DNA of 64,000 bases from Winogradskyella sp. (GTDB lineage Bacteria; Bacteroidota; Bacteroidia; Flavobacteriales; Flavobacteriaceae). Position numbers and translations under genes: made by a program. How positions within the stretch are numbered: the first letter of the stretch is position 1; each line of letters starts with the position of its first letter. The notes under the pieces were generated by a model. The model did not search any database. It was not told the DNA's origin and saw only the letters and a program-made list of their open reading frames with translations. This document shows, piece by piece, positions 30,533-36,318 of the stretch. The DNA is taken from the NCBI GenBank assembly GCA_028383925.1, contig JAOEWO010000003.1:1-64000 (forward strand). Reading direction: 5' to 3'.

Positions 30533-31648
30533 ATGAAAAATTTATATTTAATTTTAGTTATCATTATAGCTTTTGGTTGCACAAATTCTAATAAAGAAGA
30601 GGTTTTAAAAGAAGATGTAACTTATAATATTGAAGTTATTGCAAATCCAATTTTAAACTTAGAGCAAGCTAATCGTTTAGCGCAATTGCCTTTGCATTGT
30701 ATGGCTACAGAATATCCCAACAAGCTTAATCAAACCATTGGTAGTGCTTTAGATTTGCAAACTCCAAAAGAGCTACATCCTGCGTTCTATGGGTGCTTCG
30801 ATTGGCATTCTGCTGTACATGGTCATTGGAGTTTGGTGTCGCTTTTAAAACAGTTTCCAAATTTAGAACATAGAATTGAGATTGAAGAAAAATTACTTCA
30901 GAATATATCCAAAGAAAATATAGCTAAAGAATTACTGTATTTTAAAGGACAATATAACACTTCTTTTGAGCGCACTTATGGTTGGGCTTGGTTATTAAAA
31001 TTAGCAGAAGAATTACGTGGTTGGGATAGTGACGTTGCGAGGGATTTAGAAGCGAATCTTCAGCCGTTAACAGATTTAATAATCAGTAAATACTTAGAAT
31101 TTTTGCCTAAGTTAAATTACCCTATTCGCGTTGGTGAGCACCCAAATACTGCATTTGGATTAAGCTTTGCTTACGATTATGCAATAGCTGTTAACCACAT
31201 AGAATTAAAAACACTTATAGAGGTTAGAGCAAAAGATTTTTATGCTAAGGACAGTGGTTGTCCTTTAGAATGGGAGCCAAGTGGTTTCGATTTTTTATCG
31301 CCTTGTTTAGAAGAAGCTGCTTTAATGAAACGCGTTTTGCTAAAAGAAGAATTTAAAAATTGGTTTCAAGAGTTTTTGCCACAACTAAAAGAGTCAACCT
31401 TTAATTTGGTCGTTGGTAAAGTCTCTGATAGAACTGATGGAAAATTAGTGCATCTCGATGGTGTTAACTTTTCTAGAGCTTGGAGTCTTAATTATATTGC
31501 AAAAGATTTACCAGAATATGCACATCTTAAAAACGTAGCAAATCAGCACATTAATTATTCGTTACCAAGTATTGTAGGCGATAGTTATGAAGGTGGCCAT
31601 TGGTTAGGGAGTTTTGCAATCTACGCTTTAAACTCTGTAGATAAATAA
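30533..31648 (+). CDS. DUF2891 domain-containing lipoprotein
   Basis: A 371-residue lipoprotein (signal MKNLYLILVIIIAFG, lipobox FGC) filled by DUF2891 (about residues 40-365). Conserved aromatic and His-rich blocks include HPAFYGCFDWHSAVHGHWS (near residue 95) and TYGWAWLLKLAEEL, suggesting an alpha/alpha-barrel fold with a His/Glu/Trp-lined pocket. No catalytic activity is established. Its stop overlaps the start of the Nramp-like gene by one base and it leads the 5-oxoprolinase genes, so a role in supplying 5-oxoproline or related peptides from outside the inner membrane is plausible but inferred. Confidence 0.85.
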   Translation: MKNLYLILVIIIAFGCTNSNKEEVLKEDVTYNIEVIANPILNLEQANRLAQLPLHCMATEYPNKLNQTIGSALDLQTPKELHPAFYGCFDWHSAVHGHWSLVSLLKQFPNLEHRIEIEEKLLQNISKENIAKELLYFKGQYNTSFERTYGWAWLLKLAEELRGWDSDVARDLEANLQPLTDLIISKYLEFLPKLNYPIRVGEHPNTAFGLSFAYDYAIAVNHIELKTLIEVRAKDFYAKDSGCPLEWEPSGFDFLSPCLEEAALMKRVLLKEEFKNWFQEFLPQLKESTFNLVVGKVSDRTDGKLVHLDGVNFSRAWSLNYIAKDLPEYAHLKNVANQHINYSLPSIVGDSYEGGHWLGSFAIYALNSVDK

Positions 31649-32871
31649 TGAAGAGATTTCTTAAAAATATTGGGCCAGGCCCTCTGGTGGCAGCGGCTTT
31701 TATTGGGCCAGGCACAGTTACTGTTTGCACATTAGCAGGTGTTAACTTTGGTTATACGTTATTATGGGCTATGGTTTTGTCTATTATAGCGACTATTGTG
31801 CTTCAAGAAATGGCGGCGCGTTTGGGTGTTGTTTCTCAAAAAGGATTATCAGAAATTATAAGATCAGAGATTAAAAACCCAACCTTAAGACTTTTTGCTA
31901 TAATTTTAATATTAAGCGCTATTGTTGTTGGTAACGCAGCTTACGAGGCTGGTAATATAAGTGGTGGTGCGCTAGGTATGCAAACGTTGTTTGGTGATCC
32001 TGTAATTGCTGTAGGTGACTTAAGTCTTAATGTATTGAGTTTAGTTATTGGTGCGCTTGCCTTTGTGTTGTTATATATTGGTAATTATAAAATACTAGAA
32101 AAAGGACTAGTATTTTTAGTTATACTTATGAGTTTAGCGTTTTTAACAACTACAATTATTACAAAACCAAATGTTGTAGATATAGTAAAAAGTATTATTG
32201 TTCCTAAATTTCCGGAAGGTAGTATTTTAACTGTTATTGGTCTAATAGGTACTACCGTAGTGCCTTATAACTTGTTTTTACATGCCTCGTTAGCTAAAAC
32301 CAAATGGCATAATAAGAGCGATTTAGGTTTTGCAAGAAAAGATACTATGCTGGCTGTGGTTTTGGGTGGTGTAGTGTCTATGTGTATTATGATTTCGGCT
32401 TCTTCAATTCCGTTTCAAGATATTTCTAATGTATCAGATTTAGCTAAAGGATTAGAGCCATTATTTGGTGTTTATGCTAAATACTTTTTGGCTGTTGGTT
32501 TATTTGCGGCAGGTATAACAAGTGCTATTACAGCGCCATTGGCGGCGGCTTTTGTGGCAAGCGGATGTTTGGGTTGGGACGCAAATTTGAAGTCAAGAAA
32601 ATTCAGAGCTGTTTGGATGTTTATTTTAGGATTAGGAGTCGTATTCTCAACCATTGGTTTTAAATCTATTGAAATTATAAAGTTTGCGCAAGTAGCTAAT
32701 GGTCTGCTATTACCAATCATTGCAGGCTTTTTACTTTGGGTAATGAATAAGGCATCAGTATTAGGAAGTTATAAAAATTCAAAAATTCAGAACATATTAG
32801 GAGTATTAATTATGCTAGTTGCTGTTTTTCTTGGTTTAAAAGGCATATTGAGCGTTTTTAATTTAATATAA
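31648..32871 (+). CDS. Nramp-fold transporter lacking canonical metal ligands
   Basis: A 407-residue inner-membrane protein with about 11 helices, clearly Nramp family (opening IGPGPLVAAAFIGPGT). The helix-1 metal motif DPGN of true Nramps reads GPGT here, and the helix-6 Met-Pro-His reads Val-Pro-Tyr (TTVVPYNLFLH), so the Asp, Asn and Met metal ligands are all absent. It is wedged between DUF2891 and pxpA with one-base overlaps on both sides. A similar Nramp homologue (ycsG) adjoins the pxpA gene ycsF in Bacillus. The context points to transport of 5-oxoproline or another non-metal substrate. Confidence 0.85.
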   Translation: MKRFLKNIGPGPLVAAAFIGPGTVTVCTLAGVNFGYTLLWAMVLSIIATIVLQEMAARLGVVSQKGLSEIIRSEIKNPTLRLFAIILILSAIVVGNAAYEAGNISGGALGMQTLFGDPVIAVGDLSLNVLSLVIGALAFVLLYIGNYKILEKGLVFLVILMSLAFLTTTIITKPNVVDIVKSIIVPKFPEGSILTVIGLIGTTVVPYNLFLHASLAKTKWHNKSDLGFARKDTMLAVVLGGVVSMCIMISASSIPFQDISNVSDLAKGLEPLFGVYAKYFLAVGLFAAGITSAITAPLAAAFVASGCLGWDANLKSRKFRAVWMFILGLGVVFSTIGFKSIEIIKFAQVANGLLLPIIAGFLLWVMNKASVLGSYKNSKIQNILGVLIMLVAVFLGLKGILSVFNLI

Positions 32872-33614
32872 TGAAACCACTTTTACATATAGATATTAAT
32901 GCAGATTTAGGTGAAGGTATTGGTAATGAGGCCAGAATTATGCCATATCTATCATCGTGTAACGTGGCTTGTGGTGGTCATGCTGGTGATAGCCTATCAA
33001 TGACTAATGCAGTAAGGTTTGCGAGAGCCTGTAACGTAAAAATAGGTGCACATCCTTCGTTTCCAGATAAGGTAAATTTTGGTCGGGTTGAAATGGTTAT
33101 GACACCTACAGAATTATTTACAAGTTTGAAGCAACAAATAAACTATTTACAAGAGATTCTAAAACTTGAAGGAGGAAAGCTTCATCATATTAAACCTCAT
33201 GGTGCTTTATATAATTTAGCAGCAAAGGATGTGGCTATTGCTTCTGTAATTATTGAGGTTGTAAAAAGTGTAGCACAGCCTCTAAAATTATATGCGCCAA
33301 GCGAATCTTTGATTGCGAAATTGGCAATAAAAAATAATATCGAAGTTGTTATTGAAGCTTTTGCAGACAGAAATTATAACGATGATTTGTCTTTGGTTTC
33401 TAGGCAAAATACCAATGCTGTTTTAACAGATAAAAATAAGGTTTTAGATCGTGTTTTGGGTGTTGTAAAACATAAAAAAATCACCACCGTAAATGGGGTG
33501 GAAGTGAGGTTGAATGCGCACACAATTTGTGTGCATAGCGACACAGAAAACGCAGTGGAAATTTTGAAGTATTTATCTGTAGAATTACCTAAAAATAATA
33601 TCTTAATTCAATAG
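32871..33614 (+). CDS. pxpA: 5-oxoprolinase subunit A
   Basis: A 247-residue LamB/YcsF family protein. The family opening HIDINADLGEGIGNEA (residues 5-20) and CNVACGGHAGD (about 30-40) are present, as is HHIKPHGALYN near residue 104. With PxpB and PxpC it forms the ATP-dependent 5-oxoprolinase that converts 5-oxo-L-proline to L-glutamate, clearing a toxic by-product of glutamine and glutathione chemistry. The three subunits are consecutive. Confidence 0.95.
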   Translation: MKPLLHIDINADLGEGIGNEARIMPYLSSCNVACGGHAGDSLSMTNAVRFARACNVKIGAHPSFPDKVNFGRVEMVMTPTELFTSLKQQINYLQEILKLEGGKLHHIKPHGALYNLAAKDVAIASVIIEVVKSVAQPLKLYAPSESLIAKLAIKNNIEVVIEAFADRNYNDDLSLVSRQNTNAVLTDKNKVLDRVLGVVKHKKITTVNGVEVRLNAHTICVHSDTENAVEILKYLSVELPKNNILIQ

Positions 33615-33620
33615 GTGGTT

Positions 33621-34352
33621 ATGGCTTATCAATTAAAGTATTCGCGTTATGGTGAGTTTGCTATTTTAATTGAATGGCCGGCAAAAATTCACACTTCAAT
33701 TTTAAAAAACAGTCTTTTATTTAAAAAGGCTATCACTAGTTTTTATATTAAAAAAAAGGTTGAAGTAGTTTCTTCATATAATTCATTATTAATAATTTAT
33801 CCTAATGCTATTGATAAATTCAATAGTGAGGTTTCTAATCTAAAACACTTGTATTTTAAAGGTTTTGTTACTGAGGTAAAAAATACAACAACTTGGGAAA
33901 TACCAGTCTGCTACGATGCTGATTTTGGTACTGATATAGAGGCGTTTTCAGTAGAGAAAAAAATGTCAAAAACGGAAATTATTAAGTTGCATTCAACTGC
34001 AATATACACAATTTATTTTACAGGTTTTTTACCTGGTTTTTTGTACTTAGGCGGCTTACATTCTAGGTTGTTTTTAGATAGAAAAAAAACACCTAATCTT
34101 AAGGTTAAAAAAGGGGCAGTTGCTATAGGTGGAAACCAAACCGGAGTCTACCCAAATGACAGTCCTGGTGGTTGGCATATTATTGGTAATTCTCCTATCG
34201 ATTTTTTTAATGTAAATACAAATCCACCAAGTTTATTTAAGTCTGGTGATCAACTAAAATTTACGCCTATAGATGCGTCATCATATTTAGAAATTAAGCA
34301 ACAGATTTTAAAATCTGAATACCATTTAAAGAGTTTTATAACGCATGATTAA
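33621..34352 (+). CDS. pxpB: 5-oxoprolinase subunit B
   Basis: A 243-residue protein of the allophanate hydrolase subunit 1/KipI family. I start it at the ATG at 33621; a GTG two codons earlier is possible. Family marks are the FTGFLPGFLYLGG block (near residue 132), a conserved GAVAIGGNQTGVYPNDSPGGW region and WHIIG. It pairs with PxpC and overlaps it by eight bases. Confidence 0.93.
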   Translation: MAYQLKYSRYGEFAILIEWPAKIHTSILKNSLLFKKAITSFYIKKKVEVVSSYNSLLIIYPNAIDKFNSEVSNLKHLYFKGFVTEVKNTTTWEIPVCYDADFGTDIEAFSVEKKMSKTEIIKLHSTAIYTIYFTGFLPGFLYLGGLHSRLFLDRKKTPNLKVKKGAVAIGGNQTGVYPNDSPGGWHIIGNSPIDFFNVNTNPPSLFKSGDQLKFTPIDASSYLEIKQQILKSEYHLKSFITHD

Positions 34353-35196
34353 AGTGCTAAAATCTGGTTTTTATTCTTCTATACAAGATGCTGGTCGTTT
34401 TGGATATAGACATTTTGGCGTGCCAGTTTCTGGTAGTATGGATGCATATGCTTCTAAATTTGCAAACTTAATTATTGGCAATACTGAAGATGCTTCTGTT
34501 TTAGAAATTACAATGATGGGGCCTGAGCTTCAATTTTTAAAACCGACTATTATTGCTGTTTCTGGAGCAGATATGCAACCGTCCTTAAATAATAGTCCGA
34601 TTAAGCTAAATATTCCTATTAAGATTTTTGCTAATGATGTCCTTAGTTTCGGAAAATTGCAAAATGGTATACGTGCCTATATTTCTGTAAAAGGTGGTTT
34701 TAAAACGGCTGAAGTATTGGGTAGTAACAGTATGTATAAAAATATTACTACAATAAATCGGATTAGCGTTGATAATAAATTAGACTATGCAGATTTGGTT
34801 ACTCCCGGTTTTGGGTATAATTCTACTGTAAAGTACGATAATTCTTTATTTAGCTGTAGTGAGATTGAGGCTTATAAAGGGCCTGAGTTTGACAAGCTGA
34901 CCACGGCTAACAAAGACCAGATTTTTAACGCAGAATTTAAAATTTCTAAATTAAACAATCGTATGGCTTATCAGTTAGAGCCTTTGGTGCCTAATTTATT
35001 AACGCCTATTTTAACAAGTCCGGTTTTGCCAGGAACCGTACAATTAACACCTTCTGGTCGGTTAATTGTATTAATGAGAGACTGCCAAACTACAGGGGGC
35101 TATCCAAGAATATTACAGCTTACTGAGCGCTCCATAAATATATTAAGTCAAAAATATACAGGTATGTCGCTAAAAATCAATCAAAAAACGTATTAG
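34345..35196 (+). CDS. pxpC: 5-oxoprolinase subunit C (biotin-dependent carboxyltransferase family)
   Basis: A 283-residue protein of the allophanate hydrolase subunit 2/KipA family. The diagnostic DAGRFGYRHFGVPVSGSMD lies at residues 12-30, and a conserved TGGYPRILQL segment near the C-terminus. It completes the PxpABC set and is the last gene of the module that begins with DUF2891. Confidence 0.93.
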   Translation: MIKVLKSGFYSSIQDAGRFGYRHFGVPVSGSMDAYASKFANLIIGNTEDASVLEITMMGPELQFLKPTIIAVSGADMQPSLNNSPIKLNIPIKIFANDVLSFGKLQNGIRAYISVKGGFKTAEVLGSNSMYKNITTINRISVDNKLDYADLVTPGFGYNSTVKYDNSLFSCSEIEAYKGPEFDKLTTANKDQIFNAEFKISKLNNRMAYQLEPLVPNLLTPILTSPVLPGTVQLTPSGRLIVLMRDCQTTGGYPRILQLTERSINILSQKYTGMSLKINQKTY

Positions 35197-35313: not shown

Positions 35314-35703
35314 ATGAGCAGAATTAAAGGTTTAATTACTCCTGCTGAAGCAAAAAAATTAAATGACGCCTATACCGAAAGGTGTCAACTTATTAGTAAG
35401 ACTATTACAAATAAGCCAGATAATAGATCATCATGGTTTTCTCTTAGTGATTTACGAGATTTTTTAGATACTGCCGAGGCAGAAGCTAAAGATTTGGGCT
35501 ATGAGATGGATGGTGTTAGGATCTACTGTGGTGCATACCCAACAACAAAAGCAGGTGTAGGTTACTCAACGTCTTTTATTGTACCAACTTCAACTGTAGG
35601 GTTTGGGGAATGTGGTGACGGTGAAAGTCACGATATACCAGTAGCTAGTGGCTTAAATAAAGGTAATCTTGGTATACCGCCAAGAGCTAACTATCCACAA
35701 TAA
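35314..35703 (+). CDS. Unrecognised soluble protein, paralogue 1
   Basis: A 129-residue protein without a signal or membrane segment. It is clearly paralogous to the next gene: shared blocks are GLITPAEAKKLNDAY, DNRSSWFSL, AKDLGYEMDGVRIYCGAYP, FIVPT and GLNKGNLGIPP. The ratio of conserved aromatic, Asp and Gly residues suggests one compact domain. No family known to me. It opens a four-gene run with a 7-TM protein and a histidine kinase. Confidence 0.7.
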   Translation: MSRIKGLITPAEAKKLNDAYTERCQLISKTITNKPDNRSSWFSLSDLRDFLDTAEAEAKDLGYEMDGVRIYCGAYPTTKAGVGYSTSFIVPTSTVGFGECGDGESHDIPVASGLNKGNLGIPPRANYPQ

Positions 35704-35796: not shown

Positions 35797-36318
35797 ATGA
35801 AAAATTTCGTATTACTTATTTTAGGTATTATTTTAGGTGCTATTGCAATGTACTTCTATATATCGGGCTTAAAATCGCATCAAGTTGCAGAAACGTTACA
35901 ATTAGTAAAGCCTAATGGGCTCATCTCTCCCAGTGAAGCCAAAACGCTAAATAATGCTTACGACTTAAGACATCGTATTATTAGTGACTCATTATTCTCT
36001 ACGGCTAAAACAACAGATAATAGATCAGTTTGGTTCGACTTAGAAGAGGTTCAGAGTTATATTAAATATTCTGAAAATCAGGCAGGTGAATTAGGGTATT
36101 CTATGAATGGTCTCCGTTTATATTTTGGTGCATACCCTGAGGTTAAGGGACAAGCAGGTTTAACAACGTTATTTTTTGTGCCAACAGGTGTTAAAAACAC
36201 ATCTAAAGGAGCTATCTTGTCTTTTTCTCAAGGCGGTGGTGGTACAGATATACCAGGCTCAGATGGGTTAAATAAAGGAAGTAAAGGTATACCGCCAGGT
36301 TCTGGTTATGGCGGTTAA
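35797..36318 (+). CDS. Unrecognised membrane-anchored protein, paralogue 2
   Basis: A 173-residue protein with one N-terminal membrane helix (about residues 4-23) and a C-terminal domain paralogous to the preceding protein (GLISPSEAKTLNNAY, DNRSVWFDL, LGYSMNGLRLYFGAYP, FFVPT, GLNKGSKGIPPG). It ends in a glycine-rich tail. Thus one copy is free and one anchored. It lies 11 bp before the 7-TM gene. Confidence 0.7.
   Translation: MKNFVLLILGIILGAIAMYFYISGLKSHQVAETLQLVKPNGLISPSEAKTLNNAYDLRHRIISDSLFSTAKTTDNRSVWFDLEEVQSYIKYSENQAGELGYSMNGLRLYFGAYPEVKGQAGLTTLFFVPTGVKNTSKGAILSFSQGGGGTDIPGSDGLNKGSKGIPPGSGYGG

Follow-up and report, generated by a model that had tools for sequence, protein, structure and literature searches.

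A 64,000-nucleotide window of a Winogradskyella sp. genome (GenBank assembly GCA_028383925.1, contig JAOEWO010000003.1, positions 1 to 64,000) holds a five-gene cluster in which a transporter with a predicted Nramp fold likely imports 5-oxoproline (with a probability of roughly 0.7 in our estimate), to be opened later to glutamate, with ATP, by the 5-oxoprolinase PxpABC. We favour import because of the gene cluster itself, the residue changes at the metal-binding positions of the transporter, the match of its predicted model to Nramp structures and the link of its lineage to two unrelated families of ring-opening enzymes, and because PxpT, a transporter of the same PF01566 family that is likewise clustered with pxpABC, is reported to be required for growth on 5-oxoproline (PMC13274462). 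Such a system is already known from the YcsG/PxpT kind of PF01566 transporter, here called type 2 or T2 (PxpT in 2026; YcsG earlier, and disputed), and what is new is a separate transporter lineage whose enzyme partners include a second, unrelated kind.

The transporter gene (31648-32871, + strand; PF01566, 299.8 bits) lies between a gene for a DUF2891 protein, a predicted lipoprotein with Cys16 (30533-31648, +; PF11199, 448 bits), and pxpA for 5-oxoprolinase subunit A (32871-33614, +; PF03746, 281 bits; NF003814, 264.5 bits against a cut-off of 226). These are followed by pxpB for subunit B, which has a GTG start (33615-34352, +; PF02682; TIGR00370, 155.1 bits against a cut-off of 145.55), and pxpC for subunit C (34345-35196, +; PF02626, 215 bits), which scored under the equivalog cut-offs (NF045499, 174.4 versus 500 bits; TIGR00724, 187.4 versus 230.2 bits). 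All three subunit families of PxpABC are thus encoded within one cluster. A preliminary description of this DNA had outlined the same module of DUF2891, Nramp-fold transporter and pxpABC, and its open reading frames and families were found as described, as were the one-base overlaps of the transporter gene with the DUF2891 gene and with pxpA, both of which read TAATG. There is no gap between pxpA and pxpB, and pxpB and pxpC overlap by 8 bases. The nearest named proteins belong to Winogradskyella.

Residues at the metal-binding positions

Residues were compared on an alignment of 47 proteins, with 15 rows for the lineage of the window transporter (T1), 5 for its lower-scoring close relatives (T1b), nine for type 2 and 18 for others; T1 and T1b are labels by profile score (at least 535 bits and 328-450 bits, respectively). 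In helix 1 of the window transporter GPGT (residues 20-23; 31705-31716, +) replaces DPGN, and in helix 6 VPY (residues 205-207; 32260-32268, +) replaces MPH, so that the helix-6 Met is Val, as had been noted before. Asn103 in helix 3 (31954-31956, +) takes the place of the Glu of canonical Nramps (DraNramp E134). The window residues G20, T23, N103, V205 and Y207 correspond to DraNramp D56, N59, E134, M230 and H232, with N351 at L381, and the direct ligands, the helix-3 Glu and the helix-6 His of canonical Nramps (MntH, DraNramp, BfraNramp) are therefore all replaced. DraNramp is reported to bind Mn directly through D56, N59 and M230 and through water by Q378 (PMC10185341). The three direct-ligand positions were Gly, Thr and Val in 15/15 T1 and 5/5 T1b rows, and Asp, Asn and Met in 6/6 canonical rows; the window transporter therefore lacks the canonical SLC11/Nramp ligands (Asp and Asn of DPGN, Met of MPH). 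In DraNramp, D56A and D56G are both reported to abolish Mn transport (PMC13060092), and the helix-1 change of the window protein, from Asp to Gly, equals D56G.

The preliminary description had gone further and stated that no known metal-binding side chain is left, which holds for the direct DraNramp ligands but not for helix 10 (32689-32700, +), where Gln348 retains the water-linked Q378 and Asn351 (Leu in canonical rows) occupies a position at which an Asn of human Nramps is reported to coordinate metal (PMC13060092). Glu100 in helix 3 (31945-31947, +) corresponds to DraNramp D131, an acidic residue being retained there. Judged from the aligned residues, a DraNramp-type metal site is absent from the window transporter, with a Gln of the second shell and a Glu close by still present. 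Gly, Asn, Tyr and Asn at D56, E134, H232 and L381 were found in 29/29 T1, T1b and T2 rows and all four together in 0/18 other rows, a common pattern that either an old shared trait or parallel change would explain. Type 2 differs from T1 in having GPGF in helix 1 and GGY in helix 6, compared with GPGT and VPY, and has Gly at the Q378 equivalent (nine proteins).

Amino-acid carriers of the same superfamily hold the carboxylate of their substrate by backbone amides of the helix-1 break. In the mechanism that we propose, 5-oxoproline would enter via the window transporter and PxpABC would open its ring to glutamate using ATP. With acid gone from both helix 1 (Asp replaced by Gly) and helix 3 (Glu replaced by Asn), the carboxylate would be held by backbone amides at the glycine-rich break of helix 1. 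Recognition of the ring amide would fall to Asn103, Tyr207 and Asn351, and Glu100, one turn from Asn103, might serve a driving proton. The DUF2891 protein, predicted to be an exported enzyme, may act upstream of import.

Gene neighbours and lineage

Neighbouring genes were counted in a survey of 148 genomes of the window's phylum with a profile built from 45 T1/T1b proteins, which gave 35 matches of at least 328 bits before the scores dropped to 212. Of the 24 T1 genes, 21 had pxpA no more than 5 kb away, and 8 of the 11 T1b genes had a HyuB gene at such a distance, the HyuB genes adjoining T1b in two genomes (G018 and G073) being judged from coordinates only and the pxpA of G106, which scored below cut-off, being excluded from the counts; among the matches listed for other PF01566 proteins, 0/110 were as close to either gene. 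The linkage of T1 to pxpA is far above chance. All of the T1/T1b genomes encoded pxpA or HyuB (35/35), versus 21/113 of those without T1/T1b (Fisher's test, 1.2e-19), and because genomes within one genus are not independent the test was repeated by genus, with 20/20 versus 15/63 (4e-10). The eight pxpA genomes without T1/T1b comprised five with type 2, one with a carrier of the MFS family and two without a recognised carrier; the MFS carrier gene (G047, L036:4635-5876) lies between pxpC and pxpA and is likely a non-homologous replacement of the Nramp-fold carrier. Type-2 labels in this count were set by hand from genes adjoining pxpA, and a later type-2 profile added none, its five genes in the 148 genomes all lying beside pxpA and making up 5 of the profile's 9 rows. 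In a further set of named genomes, the best 80 of 597 loci and hence close relatives (by title nearly all Flavobacteriia), pxpA followed the transporter within 1.5 kb in 75 of the 80 and DUF2891 preceded it in 52. For the pxpA-less T1 genes at L033 and L035, a neighbouring hydroxyproline pathway guessed from open reading frame lengths was rejected when Pfam gave alpha/beta hydrolase, RmuC, TrkA and TrkH; one of these two loci has a zinc peptidase by Pfam.

The second enzyme partner is HyuAB. Eight T1b loci were opened, and HyuA and HyuB homologues lay by the transporter in six, but not in L165 and L167. In G108 and G119 HyuAB is a single fused protein (1279 and 1341 amino acids, respectively) with hydantoinase A and B domains, located 1.4 kb from T1b in G119 and followed by a DUF2891 gene in G108; the fused build is reported to be that of eukaryotic-type 5-oxoprolinases and the split build that of hydantoinases (PMC8453981). 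A T1 gene was also matched at E of 1e-60 or below in 24 plasmid records (23 haloarchaeal, one Pseudoalteromonas), ten of which were opened, and HyuA-HyuB followed T1 directly in 7 of the 9 haloarchaeal ones. The Halobellus record has no annotated gene between T1 and its end. In Haloarcula hispanica the second gene upstream of T1 encodes a Glu/Leu/Phe/Val dehydrogenase, and in Haloarcula marismortui gdhB lies about 4 kb upstream, on the opposite strand. PxpABC and HyuAB share a kind of reaction, the ATP-driven opening of a cyclic amide, but not ancestry, and since the T1 lineage is paired with both of these unrelated families it is most simply a carrier of their substrate.

Membership of the window transporter in the PF01566 superfamily follows from its score above cut-off and its predicted Nramp fold, the best Foldseek match of its model being the EleNRMT structure 7qia (E 7.3e-17). 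The protein fell short of the MntH-type NCBI models (PRK00701, 162.5 versus 430 bits; TIGR01197, 115.6 versus 272.5 bits). A tree of Nramp homologues near pxpA had been suggested as a check; an IQ-TREE tree placed T1 and T1b in one group (99/99), apart from type 2 (100/100), canonical Nramps (100/100) and the NRMT proteins, the group of EleNRMT (100/99). Only the joined T1+T1b group is supported, neither T1 nor T1b being resolved as a single group (2 changes each), and the division of T1+T1b+T2 from canonical Nramps plus NRMT, at 90/85, is not decisive; T2 forms a long branch. T1 and type-2 proteins share 16-25% identity, and the window protein shares 18-22% with the nine type-2 proteins and 21-22% with YcsG in structure alignments; the integrative YcsG model in the PDB (9a52) was matched by the fold search and absent from the sequence search, and among the 120 proteins listed for the B. 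badius relative, most of them without a name, none is labelled B. subtilis. The likeness to Bacillus ycsG-ycsF drawn in the preliminary description therefore stands in that both kinds of transporter occur beside pxpABC, but the window protein belongs to a separate lineage, outside the type-2 sequence group.

Type-2 proteins were found beside annotated pxp genes on plasmids of Bacillus badius, Pararhizobium, Deinococcus and Lactiplantibacillus (four of five records opened, the fifth being unannotated), and further ones came from five genomes of the window's phylum. We infer that YcsG and PxpT are themselves of type 2 from their reported 50% mutual identity (PMC13274462), their reported cluster and the 21-22% identity of YcsG to the window protein. 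In a published tree, Nramp-related proteins without DPGN/MPH are reported to be paraphyletic to canonical Nramps (PMC12873925), and because of this the absence of metal ligands from the window protein may be ancestral, the ligands possibly never having been gained rather than lost, as the preliminary description had put it.

Known carriers and alternative substrates

Deletion of pxpT in Corynebacterium glutamicum is reported to prevent growth on 5-oxoproline, with complementation, its authors leaving metal transport possible (PMC13274462). 5-Oxoproline import, as the preliminary description had proposed, is the best-supported reading and in that report is published for the YcsG/PxpT kind; YcsG, however, has also been claimed as a Mn importer and renamed mntG (PMC10448178). 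A transporter that works outward instead, exporting or venting 5-oxoproline of intracellular origin, with PxpABC as a second route of removal, would fit the reports that glutamine and glutamate give rise to the compound spontaneously and that B. subtilis pxp mutants accumulate it both within and outside their cells (PMC13274462), but it is very unlikely given that growth on 5-oxoproline from outside requires PxpT and that the DUF2891 protein of the cluster is predicted to be exported.

Several observations weigh against import of 5-oxoproline, and several of these favour a divalent-metal importer (of Mn, Mg or Fe) whose site is altered and which would belong to the cluster because metal is required by the pathway or by its regulation. 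Over-expression of YcsG is reported to have raised cell Mn, and an mntH mntA ycsG triple mutant to have been obtainable only with an extra copy of ycsG (PMC10448178). No assay or uptake measurement of any T1 protein was found among the open-licence literature matches listed. The looser NCBI model NF037982, 'divalent metal transporter', accepts the window protein at 100.5 bits (cut-off 50). The pocket retains an acid, Glu100 at D131 (14/15 T1 rows), and the Q378 equivalent, and Gly at D56 is by itself unspecific, being present in 8/8 rows of other Nramp-related types. By distance, 3/24 T1 and 3/11 T1b genes have neither pxpA nor HyuB within 5 kb, and the T1 genes of Natrononativus and Pseudoalteromonas are not followed by HyuAB. 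Canonical Nramp is present in 2/35 T1/T1b genomes versus 44/113 others (p 1e-4), a scarcity that fits replacement of a metal importer by T1 but that lineage may explain; genes of the FeoB and Zip types are present in the host genome. Some haloarchaeal T1-hyuAB loci carry an added gene of the Asp/Glu-racemase family, and the split HyuAB proteins may be hydantoinases or other lactamases.

A metal importer is nevertheless unlikely. EleNRMT, which shares its fold and a non-canonical site with the window protein, is reported to move Mg nearly as well as Mn (PMC13060092), but the EleNRMT group, which forms a group without T1, retains the helix-1 Asp and an acid at E134 (4/4 NRMT rows each, versus 0/15 T1 rows for both), where the window protein has G20 and N103. 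The DraNramp D56A and D56G results, the growth defect of the pxpT deletion and the link to two unrelated ring-opening families, set beside 0/110 for the other Nramp matches listed, all speak against transport of metal. The Mn claim for YcsG would itself be hard to reconcile with DraNramp D56G, if type 2 generally has the letters of its nine aligned members.

Transport of a related cyclic amide or amino acid (hydantoin, proline or glutamate), with 5-oxoproline not the main substrate in every branch, is quite unlikely. In haloarchaea and in some Bacteroidota the partner enzymes have the split HyuAB build, that of hydantoinases, and because their best scores, below cut-off, were with NCBIfam caprolactamase models, their substrate may be another cyclic amide; the racemase-family genes beside some of them point the same way. 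The partner in the window's lineage is PxpABC, however, with 5-oxoproline as its known substrate, and fused HyuAB of the 5-oxoprolinase build lies near two T1b genes.

DUF2891 and wider occurrence

Cys16 of the DUF2891 protein is invariant in 27 rows, which suggests that the protein of the cluster is an exported lipoprotein; the DUF2891 proteins of Klebsiella, Kosakonia and Roseomonas start at the domain itself. Both its PF11199 score and its fold, that of Cj0554 (8ieu/8iev), place the window protein in the family, and residue 2 of Cj0554 aligns to residue 43 of the window model, so that the exported N-terminal portion has no counterpart in Cj0554. Acidic and His residues that are conserved, together with the barrel fold of the model, suggest an (alpha/alpha)6-barrel enzyme, and no function for DUF2891 was found among the open-licence literature matches listed. 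A Campylobacter jejuni cj0552-4 mutant is reported to be unable to use 5-oxoproline (PMC12795558), and in Cj0552-Cj0554 (DUF969-DUF979-DUF2891), as in the window, DUF2891 is encoded beside a candidate transporter, among genes that this report gives as needed for 5-oxoproline use, but the transporter there belongs to other families (DUF969/DUF979) and not to Nramp. DUF2891 likewise follows DUF969 and DUF979 on one Klebsiella and one Kosakonia plasmid, and it adjoins two unrelated candidate 5-oxoproline carriers, since it occurs beside T1 as well as beside DUF969/DUF979. Neither type of 5-oxoprolinase was encoded in 8 of the 17 DUF2891 genomes.

Peptidase genes were observed beside DUF2891 in G108, where it adjoins a gene with an M14-peptidase match (L142:9540-12977), and in Roseomonas, where it overlaps a P1 peptidase gene (L052:4979-6004), and these neighbours hint that the DUF2891 substrate may come from peptides. 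A 'putative hydro-lyase' gene recurs where pxp-like genes accompany type 2 or DUF969-DUF979 (L044, L045, L048, L050).

Ligand-less Nramp-related branches in general may carry small organic acids, with T1, T1b and T2 serving PxpABC and split or fused HyuAB, which act with ATP on 5-oxoproline and kindred compounds, a 'GTGS' branch serving uronate and sugar-acid pathways, and canonical metal transport being derived, a generalisation that we hold tentatively, at slightly less than an even chance. If it were true, 'MntG' (YcsG) and very many proteins annotated 'divalent metal transporter' would be misnamed; the database records that we opened annotate T1-type proteins as metal transporters. A lineage paired with two unrelated families of 5-oxoprolinase type offers a direct test of the metal-transporter assumption and of the dispute over YcsG (5-oxoproline versus Mn).

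Another Nramp-related type, with IGTGSVT in helix 1 and GTTM in helix 6, was seen at L172:5719-6993 (G103) in an alginate-lyase cluster, at L176:3943-5217 (G130) with a PfkB kinase, PFK and KDPG aldolase, at L173:3920-5170 (G143) with a GH2 enzyme and an SSF symporter, and at L171:5676-6917 (G031) in a TRAP/GH20 cluster. This type may carry uronates or sugar acids; a legend to an Alteromonas alginate cluster names a 'Nramp, metal-ion transporter' (PMC6431674).

The host genome (83% complete) encodes one further PF01566 protein, of a remote and very divergent type (L043:4912-6159, contig 69), whose gene precedes radical-SAM and glyceraldehyde-3-phosphate dehydrogenase genes. Downstream of pxpC in the window, 35314-35703 and 35797-36318 encode tandem paralogues without a Pfam match (43% identity over 133 amino acids), relatives of which occur in 32 of the 80 named-genome T1 loci, in 24 of them at 80-320 bases past pxpC.

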